Shown: piece after piece, positions 1,883 to 32,126 of the stretch
How positions within the stretch are numbered: position 1 is the first letter of the stretch
How the letters are laid out: each line of letters starts with the position of its first letter
IMG/VR virus record: IMGVR_UViG_3300008050_000172
Coordinates: 1 to 32,126 of that record
Source: a virus
Length of the DNA: 32,126 nucleotides
Strand: one strand, 5' to 3'
Translations under genes and position numbers: made by a program
Notes under the pieces: model-generated
Told to the model about the DNA's origin: nothing
What the model saw: only the letters and a program-made list of their open reading frames with translations
Database searches by the model: none

Positions 1883-1888
1883 ACGACA

Positions 1889-4699
1889 ATGGCGACGACA
1901 ATCTATTTCAACTCTCGCGTAACAGCGATCCCAGGTTCGTACTCTGAGGTTGACGCGAGCGGGCTGGCTCAAGTTGGACTCGGCGCAACTGGGATTGTCG
2001 CCTTGATCGGAGAGGTCGAGGGTGGGGAACCCGGCGTTGTTCACAGGGTGTCGAACCCCGGCAAGATCGGCAAGATGTTCAAAGAGGGCGATCTACTTGA
2101 GGGTGGAACGATGCTCTTTGACCCGTCGAAAGACCCAGGCATCCCCGGCGGTGCTCAAGAGGTTATGTTCGTCAAGGTCAACCCCGCGACCCAGAGCACA
2201 TTGACCCTGGACGACGACGGCGGGAACCCTGCTCTCAAGTTGGCTAGCCGCGATTACGGCGCTTTCACTGAGCGCATCAACGTGGACGTTTCCAACGGCA
2301 GCGATCCAAACACGAAGGCGGTCCAGATCGGCTTCGATAGCGTCGTTGAGACTTTTGACAACATCGGCGCAGACGGCGTGGCGACAATCCAGTACACCGG
2401 GACCGCTGGCGTCGCAGATGTGTCGTTCACGCACAGTGGCGGGCTGACAGCCGCCGTCAGTGCGTCGTTCGCGGGCCGGGGGAATGAGCTTATCGGCACC
2501 ATCCCCAGCAACCCAGGACTGAACGGCGACCTTGCTCAGACCGCTAGCCTTGAAACAATGGAGATCACTAGCGACGGCACAGAAACGTCGCAGATCACGA
2601 TCTACGGGCTGGACGCTGGCGACAATCCGGTGTCTGACACAATCACACTGGGCGGCACCCCCGCCACCTATGTAAACGGCGTCCAGACGTTCAAGGCTGG
2701 CGGCGTCCTGGGGATCTACCTGCACGCTGCCCCCGGTGGCGCGACGTTTACCGTTCGGGGCAATACCACGAGCACCCCTGTGCTAGCCGCCACAGGTGGC
2801 GGTCAGCATTACGGGCTTTACGACTGGAGCAGTGATCCGCTTGAAGGCGGTGGGCCGATTAACGTCTGGACCGATGGTGCCAGTAATGCGTGGCTCCTGA
2901 TTATCGGGCAAAACGGCGGCGGTCCCTACATGGAAGCGGTTGAACTGGATGGCGTCAACCCAGTCACGACCTCAGAGGCAGGCTGGGTAGAGGTCAGCAT
3001 GTTCGCTCTCGGGGTGGTGGACGCCGCCCGAACCGTCAACTTCCAGTCGTACTGGTTTCAAGCGGGTCAGGCTCAATTGTCGTCTGATCACCCCGACGAC
3101 ACGACTCAGAAGGTCACGATCTACGGGATGGACGTTGCTGGCCCAGCAGTCCAGTCGGAGACAATTCAACTGAATGGGACTGCCCCCGTCACGACGACGG
3201 GTAGTTGGTCTGCGATCTACGGAGCGGAAATCGACGCGGTTACAGCCGGGAACATGAACGTCTTCGCGGGAACGTCGTCGCCGCAGCAGGTTCATCTTTT
3301 CGGCTTCACGCCAGGGCAGACCCGCAGGGGGCTCGTTACTGCTGATTACGTCTTGAACGCGACCACGCTTTCATGGACGCAAGATCCGACCCCTGGACCT
3401 CCGAATGTTGTAGCGATTTTGATTGGCACTGATAACACTGGCTCTGCCGCGATGGAACGGATCAGCGGCGCATCCGGCACGAGTTCGACTTCCTGGCGAA
3501 CAATCCAGACGATTGCGTGTGCGTTGACGCCAGACGGCATTGACATTCTTCCGGCCTACACACCGTTTACGTTGACTGAATCGACGTATCCCACTTTTGA
3601 GGACTGGGAGGTCTTCTTTGCCACACAGGCTGAGTGGACGCTGACGAAGCTGATGGTGACGCCCTCTGCGGATTACGACATTGAGGCGCTTGACGAGTTT
3701 GGAAGTCAGAGTGCGCTGGCCTCTGGTTACAGCATCCTCGACATTCTGACCGACATGGCTGCGGTCATTAACGCGGGAAGCAGCTTCGTCAGTGCAGAGA
3801 TCCTGGGAGCCGCGACAGGAGCCCCGGCGAATCTATCAACCGCGCAATATCTCAGCGGTGGCACGGAGGGCGCGACTTCGTTTGGCGACTGGCAAGATGC
3901 GCTGAACCTCCTCCGCGATTACCGCGTCAACACGGTGGTCCCGTTGACCAACGATACCGCCGTGCAGGCGGCGACAATCTCGCACTGCACCTATATGTGC
4001 GCGGCTGGACGCTCTGAGCGCGACTGTGTGCTCGGCGCGACTTCGGCAATCAACCTGTCCGATGCGAAGGCGCTTGCACTGAGTATGAACACGCGCCACG
4101 CAAGGCTGCTGATTCAGGACATTCAGCGGTTCAACACGAGCGGGACGAAGGAGCGGTTCGCACCTCCGTTTAGCGCGTGCATCGCAGCCGGAATGCAGGC
4201 GGGTAGCGAGGTCGGCACGAGCCTGACGTTCAAGTACCTAAACGTCCTCGACTTCTTCGGCAACGACGCGACCTACACCATTCAGGACGACGCCAACGAA
4301 CTGATTCAGGCAGGGCTCTGCATGATCGAGAAGAACCCAAATGTGGGCTTCCGGTGGCTCAGAAACGTGACCACCTACTTGATCGACAATAACCTTGCGT
4401 ACTGCGAGGCTTCGGTGAACGAAGCGGTGAACTACTCGGTCTACACGCTTCGGACGGCGCTTGAAGCGATTGTCGGCAAGAAGGGCTTTGCCGGGACAGT
4501 GACAGCAGCACAGGGCATCGCAATCTCGGTCCTGGGGCAGTTGGTCGGCGTGACAGCCATCGTCAGCTACAAGAACCTGACTATCGAATTGACTGGCGAC
4601 GTTATGACAATTGATGTGGAGATCGCCCCGGTCATTCCCGTCAACTTCATAAAGACGACAATCCATCTTGTTTCTGCCTCGTTTGAGGCTTCGACCTAG
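1889..4699 (+). CDS. Phage tail sheath protein with large inserted beta-domains
   Basis: This is the contractile sheath subunit that polymerises around the tail tube and shortens during DNA injection. The conserved C-terminal half is clear: the segment from YLSGGTEGATSFGDWQDAL, then a glycine-free helical/strand core, GVTAIVSYKN, and the final strand region ending ITIHLV-like, typical of sheath C-termini that donate strands to neighbours. At 936 residues it is far longer than a minimal sheath. The extra mass lies between about residues 150 and 600 and includes two similar domains starting near residue 235 (ITIYGLDAGDNPVSDTITL) and residue 406 (VTIYGMDVAGPAVQSETIQL), apparently a tandem duplication displayed on the tail surface. 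The ATG overlaps a CGACAAT motif (CGACAATGG), with a second copy at codons 3-5. The family call is firm; the role of the insertions is unknown. Confidence 0.9.
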   Translation: MATTIYFNSRVTAIPGSYSEVDASGLAQVGLGATGIVALIGEVEGGEPGVVHRVSNPGKIGKMFKEGDLLEGGTMLFDPSKDPGIPGGAQEVMFVKVNPATQSTLTLDDDGGNPALKLASRDYGAFTERINVDVSNGSDPNTKAVQIGFDSVVETFDNIGADGVATIQYTGTAGVADVSFTHSGGLTAAVSASFAGRGNELIGTIPSNPGLNGDLAQTASLETMEITSDGTETSQITIYGLDAGDNPVSDTITLGGTPATYVNGVQTFKAGGVLGIYLHAAPGGATFTVRGNTTSTPVLAATGGGQHYGLYDWSSDPLEGGGPINVWTDGASNAWLLIIGQNGGGPYMEAVELDGVNPVTTSEAGWVEVSMFALGVVDAARTVNFQSYWFQAGQAQLSSDHPDDTTQKVTIYGMDVAGPAVQSETIQLNGTAPVTTTGSWSAIYGAEIDAVTAGNMNVFAGTSSPQQVHLFGFTPGQTRRGLVTADYVLNATTLSWTQDPTPGPPNVVAILIGTDNTGSAAMERISGASGTSSTSWRTIQTIACALTPDGIDILPAYTPFTLTESTYPTFEDWEVFFATQAEWTLTKLMVTPSADYDIEALDEFGSQSALASGYSILDILTDMAAVINAGSSFVSAEILGAATGAPANLSTAQYLSGGTEGATSFGDWQDALNLLRDYRVNTVVPLTNDTAVQAATISHCTYMCAAGRSERDCVLGATSAINLSDAKALALSMNTRHARLLIQDIQRFNTSGTKERFAPPFSACIAAGMQAGSEVGTSLTFKYLNVLDFFGNDATYTIQDDANELIQAGLCMIEKNPNVGFRWLRNVTTYLIDNNLAYCEASVNEAVNYSVYTLRTALEAIVGKKGFAGTVTAAQGIAISVLGQLVGVTAIVSYKNLTIELTGDVMTIDVEIAPVIPVNFIKTTIHLVSASFEAST

Positions 4700-22291: not shown

Positions 22292-23874
22292 CGGTACGGA
22301 TTGTCGTCAACAATGTGGTGTCGAAGCTGGAAGCCGACACCGCGACTCTCCGCACAGTGCGTCACCACGTTGCCTATCGCGAGCGGCAGATGCCGCCCAT
22401 CGAAGCCCAGAAGATCATCAAGGGTTTCTTCTCGGTCCATCGGAGGTACGGGGGCGCTGGGGATCTGGCTCGGCTGTTCGCGGACGGCGCGACCTGTACG
22501 CGGCTGGAAGATCTGGGGGTCACACAGGAGAGCCTGACCCGAGCCCAGTTTGAGAGCACGGTGCGACAGCGTGGGGTGTGGGACGGATGGGTTCGCCTTG
22601 TGGAAAGCGACGGGACGTTCCTGACGGGGCTGCTGGCCCATGTGGAGCGTGCTCTCGCCCTGCGAGCGGGTATCGACCGAAGCCAGATCGAGTGGGACGA
22701 CCAACGGGGGATGCCGCCCGCACGCCAGGAGTGCTGGGGTGATATCGACCTGTACGGCTATCAGAGCGCGGCTGTGGCTGCATTTCTGCGGGGAGGGCGC
22801 GGCGTGATTGATCTGCCGCCGAGGAGTGGGAAGACGCGAATCGCGGTTGCTGTGGCGGCAACGCTCGGCGTCCCGGCGCTCTACATCGCTCCCACCGTGG
22901 GGATCGTGGATCAGACCGTGCGGGTGTTTCAGGATCTCCTGCCAAACAAGACGACAATCGGGCTACACAGCGGATTGTCGTCTTCCGCGAAGAACCTGAG
23001 AGCGATCAACGCGGCGCACGTTGTTGTGACGACGCCGAAGACGGCGGCGAAAGTGCCGAACGTCCATAATCGGCTGCTGCTGATCATTGACGAGTTCCAC
23101 CATGCTGCTGCGAAGACATGGCAGGCGGCGAGCGCCGCTGCTGGCAACGCCTACTGGCGGCTGGGCCTGACAGGCACCCACTACCGGGCTGACGGGCGTG
23201 GGATGCTCATGGCGGGCGTGCTCGGGCGGTGCCTCTACAAGAGGACTGTGGGCGACATGGTGGCGCTGGGGAGACTTGTGCCTGCTCGGATCGCTATGCT
23301 GCGGATTCGCGGTGCCGTTGCCGCCACGGGCTATGACATTTATCGACAGGGCGTTGTGGAGAATGTGGAGCGCAATCGCGTGCTATCCGACGCGGCAAAC
23401 CTCCTTGTGGCGAGGGGTCGCCGTGTCCTCGTGCTGACTAAGGAGATCGAGCACGCCCACGGATTGTCGTCTTTGATCGAGGGCTCAGTTGCGGTGGACG
23501 GGCGGGACAACGAGCGGGTGGACAAGATGCTCGCTGCTTTGGCAGACGGACGGGTGCAAGCGGTGGTCGGAACTTCGGTGATCGGCGAGGGACGCGACGT
23601 ACCCGCCGCTGACGCCCTTGTGTACGCCAGCGGGGGGCAGAGCAAGGTCAAGGTGGTGCAGGACTACTTTCGGGCTCTGACAGCCTCAGACGGCAAGACG
23701 AGCGCCGTAGTAGTGGACGCCGCCGACACTCAGCACTCGACGCTGCTGGATCATGCCGCCAGACGACTCCAGCACTATCGCGGCGAGAAGGCGTTCGACG
23801 CCGAGGTCATGGAGGCCGGAAAGTTTCACAGTTGGCTTGACGACAATCGGACGTTTGAGGCTGACGACGCATAG
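22288..23874 (+). CDS. SF2 DNA helicase (UvsW-like)
   Basis: I start at ATG 22288, overlapping the previous stop by 4 bases; an upstream frame extension lacks support. The 528-residue protein carries SF2 helicase motifs: motif I PPRSGKT (177-183), motif Ia YIAPTVGIVDQT, motif II DEFH (268-271), motif III LGLTGT, and a motif V region VVGTSVIGEGRDVPAADALV. Motif VI, normally QxxGRxxR, appears as QDYFRALT: the Gln and the central Arg are kept, but the Gly and the final Arg are missing. UvsW-type enzymes unwind recombination and replication intermediates. Neighbouring DnaB-like and primase genes fit a replication/recombination role. Confidence 0.8.
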   Translation: MTVRIVVNNVVSKLEADTATLRTVRHHVAYRERQMPPIEAQKIIKGFFSVHRRYGGAGDLARLFADGATCTRLEDLGVTQESLTRAQFESTVRQRGVWDGWVRLVESDGTFLTGLLAHVERALALRAGIDRSQIEWDDQRGMPPARQECWGDIDLYGYQSAAVAAFLRGGRGVIDLPPRSGKTRIAVAVAATLGVPALYIAPTVGIVDQTVRVFQDLLPNKTTIGLHSGLSSSAKNLRAINAAHVVVTTPKTAAKVPNVHNRLLLIIDEFHHAAAKTWQAASAAAGNAYWRLGLTGTHYRADGRGMLMAGVLGRCLYKRTVGDMVALGRLVPARIAMLRIRGAVAATGYDIYRQGVVENVERNRVLSDAANLLVARGRRVLVLTKEIEHAHGLSSLIEGSVAVDGRDNERVDKMLAALADGRVQAVVGTSVIGEGRDVPAADALVYASGGQSKVKVVQDYFRALTASDGKTSAVVVDAADTQHSTLLDHAARRLQHYRGEKAFDAEVMEAGKFHSWLDDNRTFEADDA

Positions 23875-24920: not shown

Positions 24921-26268
24921 CGAGTTCGGACCACAATTTCAGCGTCAGCTTGTTCGGACGATGCTTGACGATCCTGGGCTCAAGGCGCTCGTTCGACGTT
25001 TCGTGTCGGCAGACCAACTCGGTTGGACGGACCCGGCAAGCCTCTGGGGCTGGCAGGTCATTGGCGAAGACGACAATCCGTCCATGCTCAAGCTACAGAC
25101 CGAGCTTCGGCGACTAGGCGACGACGACCCGGCGAGGGTGGGGGCAGCGGAGATTGTCGAGGCGACAATCGACGTTCGCGACAATGAGTACGTTCGCGAG
25201 AGCATCGTTGAATGGGCGCGACGCCAGACGTTCATGCTCGGCTTTTCTGAGGCGCGGGATGCGTGGAACGGCGGCGACCACGAGACAGCCATGAGTCTGA
25301 TGATGGGTCGGATCGAGGAAATGAGCACGATCCGGTTCGGGACGGCAGATCGCGGGTGGTTTTTTGAAGAACTGGGCGACAGGCAGCATCGTCGCCAGAC
25401 CGCTGAACGAAGCGCGGTGTCGCACCCCATCGGCATCGACAAGATCGACAGAGCGATGGACGGTGGATTGTCGCCCGGTCAGCTTGAAGTCGTCATGGCG
25501 TACAGCGGCATCGGCAAGACTTTCTGGTGCGTCCAGCGGGGATTCACCACAGCGAGGCGACGGAAGCGGTGTCTGCACTTCGTACTGGAGGGCGGTCGAG
25601 GCAAGACCGAGGATCGCTACGAAGCTCGCTTCGCTGACAGCCTGTATCGCGAGGTGAAGACCGGGAATCTCGACACGAAGGTCATGGCGATCATGCAGCG
25701 CGAGTATCGGCTGTTGAAGCAGAATCTCGTAGTCCGAGGGTTCGGGGATCTCGATTCCTGGCGAGCCACCTATGACGATGTGCTCGCCGAGGTCAAGGAA
25801 CTGAGATCAGCGCATGGGTGGGTGCCTGACCTGATTGTCGTTGACTACGGCGACCTGCTGTGGGCCGGGGTCGATGGCGAGTCTGAGTACCAGAGACAGA
25901 AGATCGCGTTTCGGCAACTCAAGGCTCTGAGCGAGCGGATCGAGTTCCGAGGCCACACCGGATACGCAGTGTGCTCGCCAACGCAGGCGCAGCGCCCCGA
26001 CAAGGGCGCTGACCGCAGAGAGCATGTGCTTCGGCCCCGCGACGTAGCCGACTGCTATGAAAAGGTCAGGGTCAGCGATGTGATCATCAGCCTCAATCGG
26101 ACTGAGAAGGAGAAAGAGCACGCCCTAGCGAGGGTCTATCTCGGGAAGTATCGGGACGCCGAGGATGGCGTGTGTGTTCGTGTTCGCACGGCGTACACGA
26201 AGGGCGCTTTCTCAGATCTCTCGGTCAAGGAGGAACCACCGCCCCCGCCCCCAGAGGACGACTTTTGA
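24907..26268 (+). CDS. DnaB-like replicative helicase
   Basis: The ATG at 24907 has GGAGA about 8 bases upstream; a longer reading of this frame lies inside the previous gene and is not favoured. The 453-residue protein has a RecA-type core: Walker A AYSGIGKT (198-205), where the usual first Gly of GxxxxGKT is Ala, and Walker B DLIVVDYGD (308-316). A helix just before the core (HPIGIDKIDRAMDGGLSPGQ) is the usual DnaB 'G-hG-L-G' leader. YAVCSPTQAQ at about residue 350 resembles DnaB motif H3 (the Q sensor), and DVIISLNRTEKEKEH is close to the H4 region. It unwinds the phage fork with the downstream primase. The N-terminal domain is short, and the C-terminus ends in a proline run plus DDF. Confidence 0.8.
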   Translation: MRGADEFGPQFQRQLVRTMLDDPGLKALVRRFVSADQLGWTDPASLWGWQVIGEDDNPSMLKLQTELRRLGDDDPARVGAAEIVEATIDVRDNEYVRESIVEWARRQTFMLGFSEARDAWNGGDHETAMSLMMGRIEEMSTIRFGTADRGWFFEELGDRQHRRQTAERSAVSHPIGIDKIDRAMDGGLSPGQLEVVMAYSGIGKTFWCVQRGFTTARRRKRCLHFVLEGGRGKTEDRYEARFADSLYREVKTGNLDTKVMAIMQREYRLLKQNLVVRGFGDLDSWRATYDDVLAEVKELRSAHGWVPDLIVVDYGDLLWAGVDGESEYQRQKIAFRQLKALSERIEFRGHTGYAVCSPTQAQRPDKGADRREHVLRPRDVADCYEKVRVSDVIISLNRTEKEKEHALARVYLGKYRDAEDGVCVRVRTAYTKGAFSDLSVKEEPPPPPPEDDF

Positions 26269-26294
26269 GGCGACAATCCCCGGCAGAGCTTCGC

Positions 26295-27332
26295 ATGGAC
26301 TTCCCGGCGTGGGTCGCCGGGAACCTGACGGTCGAGGAGCAGGCAGGCTCGGAGTGGACCTGTGTCTGCCCCGCGTGCGGCAAGCCGAAGCTGGCAGTCA
26401 ACGTCCGTAAGCGAGCGTTTCAATGCTGGATCTGCAAACTGTCCGGTCGGAACGCTGCGATGCTGGTGTCAGTCACACTGGCGCTCGATCCCCAGGAGGC
26501 GGCGGCGTACCTGTCCACTGGCGTCCTGGCGTTGGCAAACGAGCGCATAGACCCACTGGCGAAGCCGAAGGCGAAGCGGGGCATCCTGCCGAAGGCTCCG
26601 CTCCCGCCAGGGACGCAACCGCTTCAGGGCTCGGCGCTTCGGTACGCTGAGAAGCGGGGCATTCCAGCAGAGCACGCCCAGCTTTTCGGATTGTCGTCTA
26701 TTGCCGGGGATGGGCGCGGAACAACCGCAGACCGGATTCTGACAGGGAGGCTGCTGATTCCTGCATTCGATCTTCGACGGCGACTTGTCTACTGGACGGC
26801 GAGGGCTACGGACGACCACAAGATCAAGACGGTAAACCTGCCACGCGACGACAGGCATGAGGCGTGGGGATTGTCGCCAACGGAGGGGTGTGCTACTCGC
26901 TCGGAAGTGCTGGTTGGCATCCATTCTGTTTCGCCGGGAAGCCGGGTGATTGTGGTCGAGGGTCCACTAGATGCTGTGGTGGGCGGTCCCGGTTTTGTCG
27001 CCACGCTCGGGGCGTCCCTTTCGGTGGAGCAGGCGTTTTTGTTGGCGTCCTCTGGGGCGTCTGAGGCTGTGATCCTGTATGACCCTGACGAGGCTGGTGC
27101 AAAGGGCGCAAAGGCGGCTCTGGCCCGATTGTCGTCCTTCATGCCGACGCGAGTGGCGCAGTGTCCCGCCGGGACGGACCCGGCGGATCTCGGAAGGGCT
27201 GCGGCGTTGAAAGCAGCCGATAGCGGTTCGGAAGTAGAGGCGATCCCCGCGCTCGGGATCGCTCGACCACAACGGCGAGGGCGGCTGCGATCCACACCCC
27301 AGAGGCTAAAAGGGCTAAAAGGACTAAATTGA
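26295..27332 (+). CDS. DNA primase with zinc finger and TOPRIM domain
   Basis: A 345-residue protein. The N-terminal zinc finger has C-x2-C at residues 25-28 (CPAC) and C-x2-C at 44-47 (CWIC), 15 residues apart, like T7 and DnaG-type primases. The TOPRIM domain follows: SRVIVVEGPLDAV at about 215-230 with the catalytic Glu, and ILYDPDEAGAKGA at about 259-271 with the Asp pair. It reads a template to make RNA primers and would act with the DnaB-like helicase. I start at ATG 26295; an alternative TTG at 26265, 10 codons upstream, has a better ribosome-binding site (AGAGGA), so the start is uncertain. The stop overlaps the left arm of the terminator-like pair. Confidence 0.8.
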   Translation: MDFPAWVAGNLTVEEQAGSEWTCVCPACGKPKLAVNVRKRAFQCWICKLSGRNAAMLVSVTLALDPQEAAAYLSTGVLALANERIDPLAKPKAKRGILPKAPLPPGTQPLQGSALRYAEKRGIPAEHAQLFGLSSIAGDGRGTTADRILTGRLLIPAFDLRRRLVYWTARATDDHKIKTVNLPRDDRHEAWGLSPTEGCATRSEVLVGIHSVSPGSRVIVVEGPLDAVVGGPGFVATLGASLSVEQAFLLASSGASEAVILYDPDEAGAKGAKAALARLSSFMPTRVAQCPAGTDPADLGRAAALKAADSGSEVEAIPALGIARPQRRGRLRSTPQRLKGLKGLN

Positions 27333-27395
27333 CGACAATTGACGCCTAACTGGATTGTCGTTTTCTTTACCTAATTGAGCGGGAATGGTCCGTTC
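27329..27395 (+). promoter_or_regulatory. Intergenic element, copy 1
   Basis: This block is nearly repeated at 29476-29541. It comprises TTGACGACAAT, a 13-14 base spacer containing GACGCCTA, ATTGTCGTTTTCTTT, TAATTGAGC and a GGTCCG-containing end. The terminator-like pair occupies the first half. The shared second half (TAATTGAGC plus GGGA and GGTCCG) is not explained by a terminator and may be a promoter or operator for the next gene. No clear -35/-10 pair of sigma-70 type is seen. Confidence 0.5.
27332..27368 (+). terminator. Terminator-like inverted pair of CGACAAT motifs
   Basis: Arms ACGACAAT (27332-27339) and ATTGTCGT (27354-27361) are perfectly complementary with a 14-base loop, followed by TTTT-C-TTT (27361-27368). 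This has the shape of an intrinsic terminator right at the primase stop. The stem is only 8 bp and AT-biased, so termination strength may be modest. Confidence 0.55.
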
Positions 27396-27415
27396 ACCTT
27401 CGCATGGAGGCAGAA

Positions 27416-28259: not shown

Positions 28260-28291
28260 CCGCCCAGGCAGACGACAATCTGCCTGGGCGG
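28260..28291 (+). terminator. Strong 13-bp hairpin with CGACAA loop
   Basis: Arms CCGCCCAGGCAGA and TCTGCCTGGGCGG are perfectly complementary over 13 bp. The loop is CGACAA, so the dispersed motif CGACAAT sits at the hairpin tip. No T-tract follows, so it is not a standard intrinsic terminator; it could be an RNA processing or attenuation stem. It sits in the 95-base gap between two genes. Confidence 0.55.
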
Positions 28292-29412: not shown

Positions 29413-29499
29413 GTGGATTCCCCCGATTCGGAATGTTCAGAAATGAATGTTTCGGGTCGGGGGCGTTCACAAACTTTGACGACAATGACGCCTAGCTAA
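29413..29499 (+). CDS. Possible 28-residue small ORF
   Basis: GTG 29413 is preceded by GGAGG (29400-29404) and the CGACAAT-C spacer, exactly as at the tail fibre gene. The frame runs 28 codons (product begins MDSPDSECSEMNVSGRGRSQ) to a TAA at 29497-29499, which lies inside the repeated intergenic block. No hydrophobic segment or motif. It could be a real small peptide or a chance frame after a copied translation signal. Confidence 0.3.
   Translation: MDSPDSECSEMNVSGRGRSQTLTTMTPS
29420..29463 (+). other. Inverted repeat CCCCCGA / TCGGGGG
   Basis: Seven-base arms at 29420-29426 and 29457-29463 flank 30 bases. It may form a stem in the non-coding message between two genes. There is no T-tract directly after it. 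Confidence 0.35.
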
Positions 29500-29541
29500 A
29501 TTGTCGTTTTCTTTGAGTAATTGAGCCGGGAGGTCCGGTTC
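29476..29541 (+). promoter_or_regulatory. Intergenic element, copy 2
   Basis: Near copy of the block at 27329-27395. Small insertions and deletions separate the copies, while the motif pair, the TTTTCTTT tract, TAATTGAGC and GGTCCG are kept. It precedes the AAA+ ATPase gene, as copy 1 precedes the gene at 27416. A promoter or operator function is inferred from placement and conservation. Confidence 0.5.
29479..29514 (+). terminator. Second terminator-like inverted pair of CGACAAT motifs
   Basis: Arms ACGACAAT (29479-29486) and ATTGTCGT (29500-29507), loop 13 bases, then TTTT-C-TTT. This has the same plan as the pair at 27332-27368, with the loop one base shorter and some changed positions. 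Confidence 0.55.
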
Positions 29542-29557
29542 GATTTCCGATACAATT

Positions 29558-29573
29558 GCGGGGTTCGCCCCGC
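29558..29573 (+). other. GC-rich UUCG-loop hairpin in the leader of the ATPase gene
   Basis: Arms GCGGGG and CCCCGC, loop TTCG, perfectly matched. It lies 20 bases before the ATG at 29593, between a TACAAT (29551-29556) and the GGAGG ribosome-binding site. It could stabilise the message 5' end or affect translation. Confidence 0.45.
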
Positions 29574-29592
29574 TAGTGCATGGAGGCACATC

Positions 29593-30660
29593 ATGGCAAT
29601 TCCAAAGCCAAAGACAGCAAAGACAAAGACCCGACGAACCAGCAAGGCTGGAGTCACATGGAAGCCCTTCGCCATTCCTGGCATCGACGTTCGCCTGTTC
29701 AAGGCGATTCACAAGGACGACGAGGGCGACGAGATCATCCCGTTCGGCGTTCCTACCATCGACCCGAATTACGTCTTCCGGCCCGAACTGGTCCGAGAGG
29801 TCGCCTGGGCCGTTTTCCCGCACGACAATCCGAAGCCGTATCACGCGGACGACTGGGCTCCGTGTCTGCTCGCTGGGCCGAAGGGCTCTGGCAAGACGAG
29901 CCTCGTGCTCCAGCTTGCTGCTCGCCTGAACATTCCGTGCTGGCGCGTCAATCTGAACGTGGGAACGTCTGTGCGGCACCTCAAGGGTCGCGTGGGCGCA
30001 GAGCCCGGTCGAACCGTCTTCATTCCTGGCGTCGTCACGGCGGCGATGGAGCAGGGCGGCTGGCTGGTGCTGGACGAGTTCAGTGCTGCGACCCCCCCGG
30101 TCGCTCTCTCGCTGTTCCCAGTGCTTGAGCCGACTGGTGCGGTCCTGCTGGAAGACGCGCAGCCCCCGCGCTACGTCCGTCGTCACCCGTCGTTTCGGGT
30201 GTTCGCCACGGACAACGTGCTGGGCTGCTCGATGGAGGCGGATCGCTTCTCCTACGCTGGTACGAACAGCGACATGAACGAGGCGCTGCTGGATCGGTTC
30301 GGCTCGTTCATCGAGGTGCCGTACATGGACAAGGCCACCGAAATGACCTGCGTGGCATCGAAGGTCGCAGATCTCGACGGCGACACGCTGGAAGGTCTGA
30401 TTCGGGTCGCGGATTCGGTACGACAATCGAGAGAGGTGTCCGGTGGATTCTCCACACGGATGCTGCTGGACTGGGCTCGCCGGGTGGCTGCTGGTCGCGT
30501 CAACGCGAAGGGCAAGCCAATGCCGGAAGCCGAGGACGACACGCACATTCTGAACGCCGCGCTGGGCGCGTTCCTCCGACGCCAGAAGTCGTCAGTGGAG
30601 CGCGATGCAATCATCGAGGTGATCCGGCGTGTGTTCGTCATTGACAACGCGGGTGCATGA
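29593..30660 (+). CDS. MoxR/CobS-type AAA+ ATPase
   Basis: The ATG at 29593 follows GGAGG by 6 bases. The 355-residue protein has a basic N-terminus (KPKTAKTKTRRTSKAG), Walker A GPKGSGKTS (95-103), Walker B WLVLDEF (157-163), sensor 1 FRVFATDN, and LLDRFGSFIEVPY near the sensor/arginine-finger region. This is the MoxR/CobS family, whose members in phages often sit next to a CobT-like partner, as here. Such ATPases remodel or activate target proteins, sometimes by metal insertion. The role in phage is not established. It overlaps the next gene by 4 bases. Confidence 0.8.
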   Translation: MAIPKPKTAKTKTRRTSKAGVTWKPFAIPGIDVRLFKAIHKDDEGDEIIPFGVPTIDPNYVFRPELVREVAWAVFPHDNPKPYHADDWAPCLLAGPKGSGKTSLVLQLAARLNIPCWRVNLNVGTSVRHLKGRVGAEPGRTVFIPGVVTAAMEQGGWLVLDEFSAATPPVALSLFPVLEPTGAVLLEDAQPPRYVRRHPSFRVFATDNVLGCSMEADRFSYAGTNSDMNEALLDRFGSFIEVPYMDKATEMTCVASKVADLDGDTLEGLIRVADSVRQSREVSGGFSTRMLLDWARRVAAGRVNAKGKPMPEAEDDTHILNAALGAFLRRQKSSVERDAIIEVIRRVFVIDNAGA

Positions 30661-31220
30661 TGCTGATCACAGCGGCAGAGGTCTGGCACCACAACAAGGA
30701 CGGGACTGACTTTGCGCTGATTGTCGCCAACAATACGAAGTCTGGATGCTGGTCAACCTTCGCGCTCAAGGGCGCGATGGATCACGACAAGTATGACTGG
30801 CTTCTTGCCATGCTGGAGAGGTGCGGCGACTTCAACGCGGACGCCACTCTGGAAGAGTTGGTCGGTGTCGGCTTCGATGCCCGCAACGGCGAGTTTGCGA
30901 TGGAGAAGGCTGCGATCAAACACGCTCGGCGGTTGCTGGGCAGCGTGACACGCGCTGCCCAGAACCCCGAGGGGTGGGAGCCAGCGAAGGGCTGGGAGCA
31001 GAAGTACAAAGGTGACTTGACGATGCAGGAGTATGACGAGCGTGCAGGCGTTCGGAAGCTCAAGAGCAAGGTCGAGAAGCTGGCGGCGGCTGTGGAAGAA
31101 GACGACAATCAGGATGCGTTCGGTGATTCGGACGACGATTTCGCGGCGCGACGAAGGCGAAAGCTGGAGTTGAAGCGCCGTCAACGAGAACTAGAGCAAG
31201 AAGCGCAAGGAGGCGCATGA
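30657..31220 (+). CDS. Hypothetical protein with C-terminal coiled coil, between the ATPase and CobT-like genes
   Basis: A 187-residue protein beginning within the previous stop (ATGA). The N-terminal part (ITAAEVWHHNKDGTDFALIV; STFALKGAMDHDKYDWLLAM) is mixed alpha/beta. Residues from about 130 are charged helix (RKLKSKVEKLAAAVEEDD and RRRRKLELKRRQRELEQE), a likely coiled coil with an acidic interruption. It overlaps the next gene by 4 bases. It may link the ATPase to its partner; no family recognised. Confidence 0.6.
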   Translation: MMLITAAEVWHHNKDGTDFALIVANNTKSGCWSTFALKGAMDHDKYDWLLAMLERCGDFNADATLEELVGVGFDARNGEFAMEKAAIKHARRLLGSVTRAAQNPEGWEPAKGWEQKYKGDLTMQEYDERAGVRKLKSKVEKLAAAVEEDDNQDAFGDSDDDFAARRRRKLELKRRQRELEQEAQGGA

Positions 31221-32126
31221 CCATGAATGTAAACATGACGATGCACGGAATGAACCTACAGTGGACGATGGAGAGGCTGGAAACGGCTTCCGAGAAGACG
31301 GCGAAGGCGCTTGTGCGTGACCCGTCGATCACGGTGGTGTCGCACGGGACAGACGCACACTACAACTTTGCAACGAAGACCCTGACGGTCCCGAGTTACG
31401 CGATCAGGGACGACCTGATTGAGGAGCATGTCTGGGCGTGGCGTGGGCTGCTCGATCACGAGTGCTCGCACGTTGCATACAGCGACGGCGACACCTACAA
31501 GCGGTTCGCCGCCGAGTGGGAAGCCGAGTTCGACACGAACGCCGCACGCCGTTGCATGAAGCTCTCAAACGTGTTTGAGGACTTCATGGTCGAGCGGAAG
31601 TGGTGCGAGGCCAACCCCGGCTCGGTGCGCCACCTGAAGGCGTGCACCGATCTCGTGATCCGCGAGACTGGCGGCGCGTTGGTGTGCGACCCGCACTACC
31701 AGCCCGAAGGCGCACCGAGCCCGGTTGGCTACTTTGGTGCGCTGATCCAGTCGATGCTTCGCGTGACGACCGGACACGTTGATATCGCTGATGTTCACCC
31801 TGAGATTGTCGCCTTGCTCGACTACATCGCGGACGAAATGGCGGTCGGCATGGTCGCTGAGAGTTCCGAGGAAGTGTGCGAGGCGGCTACGGCGGTCTGG
31901 CGCAAGCTCAAGGATCTCATGTCTGAGTCTGAGGAGAACAACGACGGCTTTGGCGATTGCGACGAGGGCGAGGCGGGTGATTCCACTTCGTCTTGCAAGC
32001 GCGAGGGCGGCGCTGGCGACTCCGACGAGGACGGCGACGCTGATGGCGACGCTGATGGCGACCCTGACGGCGAGGACGGCAGCGAAGGCGACAATTCGGA
32101 CGGAGAAGACGAAGGCGACGGAGAAG
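31217..32126 (+). CDS. CobT-like protein with HExxH metal-site motif (3' end outside window)
   Basis: The frame runs from ATG 31217, overlapping the preceding stop by 4 bases, to the window edge. AGGAGG is 3 bases before that ATG; a second ATG at 31223 has better 9-base spacing. About 303 residues are visible. LLDHECSHVAYSD contains HExxH (H81-E82-C-S-H85), and NVFEDFMVERKW (118-129) could supply a third ligand. From about residue 235 it becomes a very acidic tract of Asp/Gly/Glu/Ser repeats (DGDADGDADGDPDGEDG), as in CobT-type partners of CobS ATPases. The von Willebrand A domain expected in that family would lie beyond the window. Protease-like activity is possible but unproven. Confidence 0.7.
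   Translation, partial: MTMNVNMTMHGMNLQWTMERLETASEKTAKALVRDPSITVVSHGTDAHYNFATKTLTVPSYAIRDDLIEEHVWAWRGLLDHECSHVAYSDGDTYKRFAAEWEAEFDTNAARRCMKLSNVFEDFMVERKWCEANPGSVRHLKACTDLVIRETGGALVCDPHYQPEGAPSPVGYFGALIQSMLRVTTGHVDIADVHPEIVALLDYIADEMAVGMVAESSEEVCEAATAVWRKLKDLMSESEENNDGFGDCDEGEAGDSTSSCKREGGAGDSDEDGDADGDADGDPDGEDGSEGDNSDGEDEGDGE

Follow-up and report, generated by a model that had tools for sequence, protein, structure and literature searches.

Judged from its sequence, an inverted pair of the word CGACAAT next to a primase-like gene of an uncultured phage is the upstream part of an intergenic module of about 75 bp, which is repeated before certain genes in a group of phages. The first-pass annotation had read this pair as a transcription terminator. 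That is a tempting misreading, corrected here: two facing words followed by a T-tract do not by themselves make a terminator.

The word pair and its module

The window, the whole 32,126-nucleotide stretch analysed, is a 32-kb virus record (IMG/VR record IMGVR_UViG_3300008050_000172, positions 1-32,126). Its tail sheath, baseplate, helicase, DnaB-like, primase-like and MoxR-like genes identify it as a fragment of a contractile-tailed phage. The MoxR-like AAA ATPase and a CobT-like protein encoded downstream of it lie in window 29521-32125, and PHROGs labels the ATPase "porphyrin biosynthesis", as in cyanophages. No named phage relative was found at the DNA level for window positions 1-24000, and a search of genomes through the DnaB-like helicase found no prophage relative. 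Four IMG/VR relatives (G001, G002, G009 and G010) also bear the module. They come from uncultured phages, all contigs are partial, three relatives share one metagenome of origin, and their gene calls are simple ORF picks. Identical word spacing along their shared part makes G009 and G010 close kin. One relative encodes a 624-aa N6/N4 DNA methylase (L077:823-2694), and among the relatives there are also an SbcC/SbcD-like pair, a RecA and a type IB topoisomerase-like protein (L077:4994-7887; members of alignment A4).

The pair itself was described correctly. CGACAAT and its inverse ATTGTCG are exact matches with 14 bases between them, directly 3' of the stop codon of the primase-like ORF. A27332 and T27361 add the eighth Watson-Crick pair of the stem, and TTTTCTTT follows, its first T being already paired within that stem. 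As RNA, this element (W1) folds into 10 pairs including G-U at -11.3 kcal/mol (z = -3.7), a fold that 1 of 200 shuffles equalled. The stem is AT-rich, at about -8 to -11 kcal/mol, and the loop measures 14 nt by word spacing. A second homologous element, W2 (29480-29514), has an identical ATTGTCGTTTTCTTT and matches W1 at 84% over 68 bp. TTTTCTTT lies directly 3' of the stem in both, and the W2 loop of 13 nt stands at the upper limit of the terminator loop range (about 3-13 nt). Coordinates are collected in Table 1.

Table 1. Positions in the window of the module copies, their parts and other word-bearing or neighbouring features
Feature	Position	Strand	Evidence or remark
Inverted word pair, 22-bp spacing, in helicase gene	22952-22980		No T-tract; homologous pairs in three relatives
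Primase-like ORF	26172-27332	+	TOPRIM, zinc ribbon, phrog_47; stop codon 27330-27332 adjoins W1
Module copy W1, whole intergenic module	27324-27400	+	cmsearch model R1, 74.7 bits, E 3.9e-18; used in training
W1 left word CGACAAT	27333-27339	+	Exact match
W1 conserved "loop" TGACGCCTAACTGG	27340-27353	+	CGCYTAAC common to most other copies
W1 right word (ATTGTCG on +)	27354-27360	-	Exact match
TTTTCTTT in W1	27361-27368	+	TTTC core invariant among 11 aligned copies
W1 TGAG and downstream leader hairpin (hairpin 2)	27376-27396	+	Fold; compensatory changes, 4 pairs across copies
W1 Shine-Dalgarno-like GGAGG ahead of ATG 27416	27406-27410	+	Sequence
13-bp GC-rich hairpin, word (28273-28279) across loop	28260-28291		Intergenic, no T-tract, -29 kcal/mol with flanks
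Module copy W2, upstream of MoxR-like AAA ATPase gene	29471-29546	+	78.2 bits, E 4.1e-19
W2 left word	29480-29486	+	Exact match
W2 right word	29500-29506	-	Exact match
W2 TGAG and hairpin 2	29522-29542	+	Fold
GTGC-ATGGAG-GCAC, hairpin-bracketed Shine-Dalgarno before ATG 29593	29576-29589	+	

A covariance model, R1, located 13 copies of the module in five contigs, counting once the copy common to G009 and G010 and including G1d, which is weak and incomplete. The model was trained on eight copies, which match it by construction; copies outside the training set were found with E values of 2.5e-13, 5.5e-11, 1.4e-7, 1.7e-6 and 1.9e-5, and one weakly at 0.026. Each copy is organised around a block of about 50 bp, in the order word, CGCYTAAC, inverted word or its remnant, (T/G/C)TTTC(T/A/G)T, a variable stretch of about 7 bp, and TGA(G/A). 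A second hairpin lies 3' of the block, followed in most copies by a Shine-Dalgarno sequence. Copies sit just upstream of start codons, with GGAG(G) in between for most, and placement is orthologous in relatives: there too the module precedes the AAA ATPase gene and follows the primase gene. A broader module pattern also matched viral contigs L082 and L083, which lack dense words and were rejected as chance.

Alignment of 11 copies shows where the module is conserved. The loop core reaches 1.44 bits per position, the two words 1.44 and 1.48, and neither TTTC nor TGA varies. The reported stem behaves differently from hairpin 2. Among the first eight copies, no stem pair has changed on both sides and several are broken; among all 11, one copy has a compensating change and five have lost at least two of nine pairs. 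In the copy Qc both arms have changed in such a way that the stem is kept (CGACATT/GATGTCG). For hairpin 2, compensatory changes across copies affect four pairs, though its fold does not differ significantly from shuffles in roughly half of the copies. At the position corresponding to W1, only one word stands in G002, without a partner, and this relative keeps the TTTTCGTATA T-rich stretch, TGAG and hairpin 2. At its primase stop, G009 keeps the pair and not the T-tract.

The Shine-Dalgarno sequence can itself be bracketed by a small hairpin, typically GTGC-ATGGAG-GCAC. There are 24 bracketed cases in four contigs (the window, L043, L045 and L076), nearly all a few bases before a start codon, against a chance expectation of about two, estimated at 1 in 256 GGAGG sites. 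Arm variants (GCGC/GCGC, GAGC/GCTC and TTGC/GCAA) keep the pairing.

Candidate functions of the module

The module could well be a promoter/leader whose word copies are predicted protein-binding sites, a reading held with even confidence. The arms, loop, TTTC and TGAG are conserved at fixed spacing and stand before gene starts, a pattern that fits a block of roughly 50 bp (word, CGCYTAAC, the inverted word or what remains of it, TTTC(T/A)TT, about 7 bp, TGAG) that would be read by sequence, as double-stranded DNA. Such a block would most likely be a phage promoter with a transcript start near TGAG. The mRNA would then begin with hairpin 2, followed by the Shine-Dalgarno sequence, sometimes hairpin-bracketed. 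The word copies in the block would probably be occupied by a single DNA-binding factor, the same one that reads the dispersed copies, and minor termination may occur at the T-rich stretch of W1 and W2.

A plain sigma-70 promoter was set aside. Likeness to sigma-70 sites beats shuffles when summed over the 13 copies (p = 0.004), is weak in any single copy and reaches significance in the sum alone; in the window copies the best match is not where the promoter model would place it. The likeness is better in G010, where three copies read TTAACY-16-TACAAT. Neither a phage RNA polymerase nor a sigma factor turned up in the window and its relatives, all of them incomplete genomes. Besides these points, the promoter/leader reading has against it the copies in which hairpin 2 is not significant, the Qc stem kept by two-sided changes and the G1a copy, which scores as a terminator. 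Position alone does not decide between promoter and terminator, because in a compact genome a gene start usually lies near a gene end.

An intrinsic terminator, with the two words pairing as an RNA hairpin and TTTTCTTT as the point of transcript release behind the primase gene, appears unlikely. What stood of the original terminator claim is that the W1 hairpin folds better than shuffles and that a T-rich tract adjoins it, as it does in W2 and G1a; W1 also adjoins a stop codon, G009 likewise has a pair at the primase stop, and paired uptake words serve as terminators in Neisseria and Pasteurellaceae (PMC1852404). What did not stand is the maintenance that such a role would lead one to expect. 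The stem is lost or shortened in G1b, G1c, G2b, Qd and Qe, and the T-tract is weakened in M1, M2 and Qd. The stem is also AT-rich, with a loop of 13-14 nt where TransTermHP allows 3-13. By the d'Aubenton Carafa formula (tail weighting as cited in PMC1852404), 10 of 11 copies have scores that are negative or at the borderline: -0.7 for W1, -1.2 for W2 and -2 to -57 for eight of those in relatives, with +9.9 for G1a and 51.9 for a strong control. Moreover, a terminator needs neither the conserved loop nor the downstream block and leaves both unexplained.

The wider claim, that the word has been recruited for RNA structure, fails in the window by the refuting condition set in the first-pass annotation. 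In the window, convergent pairs with gaps of at most 30 bp number 4 against 2.0 expected from random placement of the 93 words (p = 0.15), so in general they are no more frequent than chance predicts. Pairs at 19-23 bp spacing number 3 against 0.33 (p = 0.005), and two of these three are W1 and W2. Across the window and relatives, 10 of 14 close convergent pairs lie inside predicted genes, without T-tracts, and the remaining four are module copies. Intragenic pairs of this kind, together with mostly negative copy scores, indicate that the word is not generally recruited for termination.

A combination, in which hairpin 1 ends upstream transcription and the downstream block starts the next unit, is likewise improbable. 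A terminator between co-directional genes only 83 bp apart would require a promoter behind it, both candidate parts are present in the module, and the G1a terminator score is positive; yet the copies have not all kept the terminator part, whereas they have kept the rest of the module. That two dispersed words came to lie close together by chance and have no joint function is very unlikely: close convergent pairs other than module copies come near expectation (10 against about 7.7, summed over five contigs), but full or near-full pairing recurs in homologous copies of different contigs, and a conserved module surrounds the words.

The dispersed word within and beyond the phage clade

Counting both strands, CGACAAT occurs 93 times in the 32 kb of the window, where shuffles give 4.2 +/- 1.7; its usual context is G(A/G)CGACAATC. 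Related IMG/VR contigs carry the word as densely or less so, with 30 copies in 10.5 kb, 82 in 22.9 kb, 137 in 63.5 kb, 49 in 40.5 kb, 27 in 23.9 kb and 18 in 5.8 kb. The phage group has dozens to more than 100 copies per contig, at about one per 280-900 bp. Strand bias is about 2:1 or more in G001, G009 and G010, whereas the window and G002 have nearly equal numbers on the two strands. Several gene starts are overlapped or adjoined by the word, at window positions 1884-1902, 4714, 12652 and 19751 (GACGACAATGG). It also spans the loop of a GC-rich intergenic hairpin (Table 1); at the equivalent place in G009 the hairpin is present and the word is absent.

Comparison of relatives shows that the word is kept for its DNA sequence. 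The first relative, at 57% nucleotide identity, retains 10 of 27 words at their positions, compared with 3.9% for 7-mers in general. A codon-level test compared the word with other 7-mers at sites where three orthologous residues are identical. The word was kept in 12 of 14 such sites between the window and G002, 7 of 8 against L003 and 2 of 2 against G010; other 7-mers were kept at 16%, 17.5% and 12%, respectively. Between G002 and G010 no word fell within an identical peptide. These comparisons are not fully independent, because the contigs share ancestry, and the counts are small, but the excess is large. By these sequence comparisons, the word is under DNA-level selection and is kept even where the protein would not need it.

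Searches beyond the clade covered hosts, viruses and literature. One exact inverted-pair pattern (given as 10 and as 20 bases), run over 84,980 prokaryote species, found no host with the word at phage-like density. It gave 17 single matches in unrelated genomes, about chance level, which argues against a sampled host sharing the word at that density. A host uptake sequence was rejected on these scattered single matches to one exact pattern in sampled hosts. Over the viral collection, the same pattern matched contigs of this clade only. A looser pattern, CGACAATN{6,24}ATTGTCGTTTT, matched 39 viral stretches, with the dense word only in clade contigs L008, L022 and L042; virus-wide terminator use of the word was rejected, since contigs outside the clade contain the word only a few times and their matches look unrelated or due to chance. 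The word is absent from 50 kb each of Bordetella phage PHB04 and Pseudomonas phage Touem01, the nearest named phages, and a literature search for it returned one unrelated match.

Most known cases of selected words scattered densely through a genome are bacterial: uptake sequences, Chi and HIP1. If the present findings hold, viruses too can keep up a signature throughout their genomes, here one that is retained at synonymous sites and that no sampled host genome showed at phage-like density. Tentatively, GRCGACAATC might be a "self" word of the phage clade, a DNA-level recognition signal at many sites within coding genes that is read by a putative phage factor, with the module as its regulatory use. 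Such a factor may act in recombination, packaging, DNA organisation, or methylation or protection of phage DNA. In that case the virus would have evolved an uptake-sequence-like signature for itself. A clade-specific word also raises a testable question: which protein reads it?

Comparison with known systems

The word resembles uptake sequences, stoperators and HIP1 in parts, and the full definition of none of them applies. HIP1 is linked to orphan methyltransferases in cyanobacteria (PMC4390886). Like HIP1, the present word is highly iterated, and one relative encodes an N6/N4 methylase; HIP1 differs in its palindromic sequence and in belonging to host genomes. Cluster A mycobacteriophage stoperators are 13 bp long, number up to about 30 per genome and lie mostly in one orientation to transcription (PMC6550527). 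Like them, the word forms dispersed, asymmetric sites in phage genomes, with a motif that typifies one phage clade. However, the word has far more copies, spans about 7-10 bp and occurs in both orientations in all contigs, with a bias of about 2:1 in G001, and no repressor was identified in the partial genomes.

The uptake-word analogy drawn in the first-pass annotation fits the dispersal of the word, which is short, asymmetric, dense, on both strands, mostly intragenic and partly in inverted pairs; for use as a terminator it does not hold up well. Turnover between relatives combined with retention at synonymous sites also agrees with the analogy. Of about 231 uptake-sequence hairpins in N. 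meningitidis, 3 lie within genes (PMC1852404, Table 4; the total is our sum), whereas close inverted pairs here are mostly intragenic, the reverse arrangement. Unlike DUS and USS, the word is phage-borne and denser, no host genome was found with it among the species scanned, and the T-tract is not maintained.

The module has its closest layout in the SAS/ESAS of cluster K mycobacteriophages. There, an imperfect inverted repeat with 17-bp arms and a spacer of mostly 4-13 bp is followed by SAS GGGATAGGAGCCC at the start site, conserved across subclusters, with function not established in that study (PMC3203893). Both systems consist of repeated modules just upstream of gene starts within a phage clade, in similar place and layout, and here too an inverted-repeat module stands immediately before start codons and is conserved at orthologous genes. 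By eye the consensus sequences differ, and the phages look unrelated. The present module also differs in having a second hairpin in between, shorter arms and an arm word that is dispersed through genes as well. SAS GGGATAGGAGCCC and GTGCATGGAGGCAC here both bracket a Shine-Dalgarno sequence with complementary arms, and the recurrence of the bracketed Shine-Dalgarno makes the parallel to cluster K SAS stronger.
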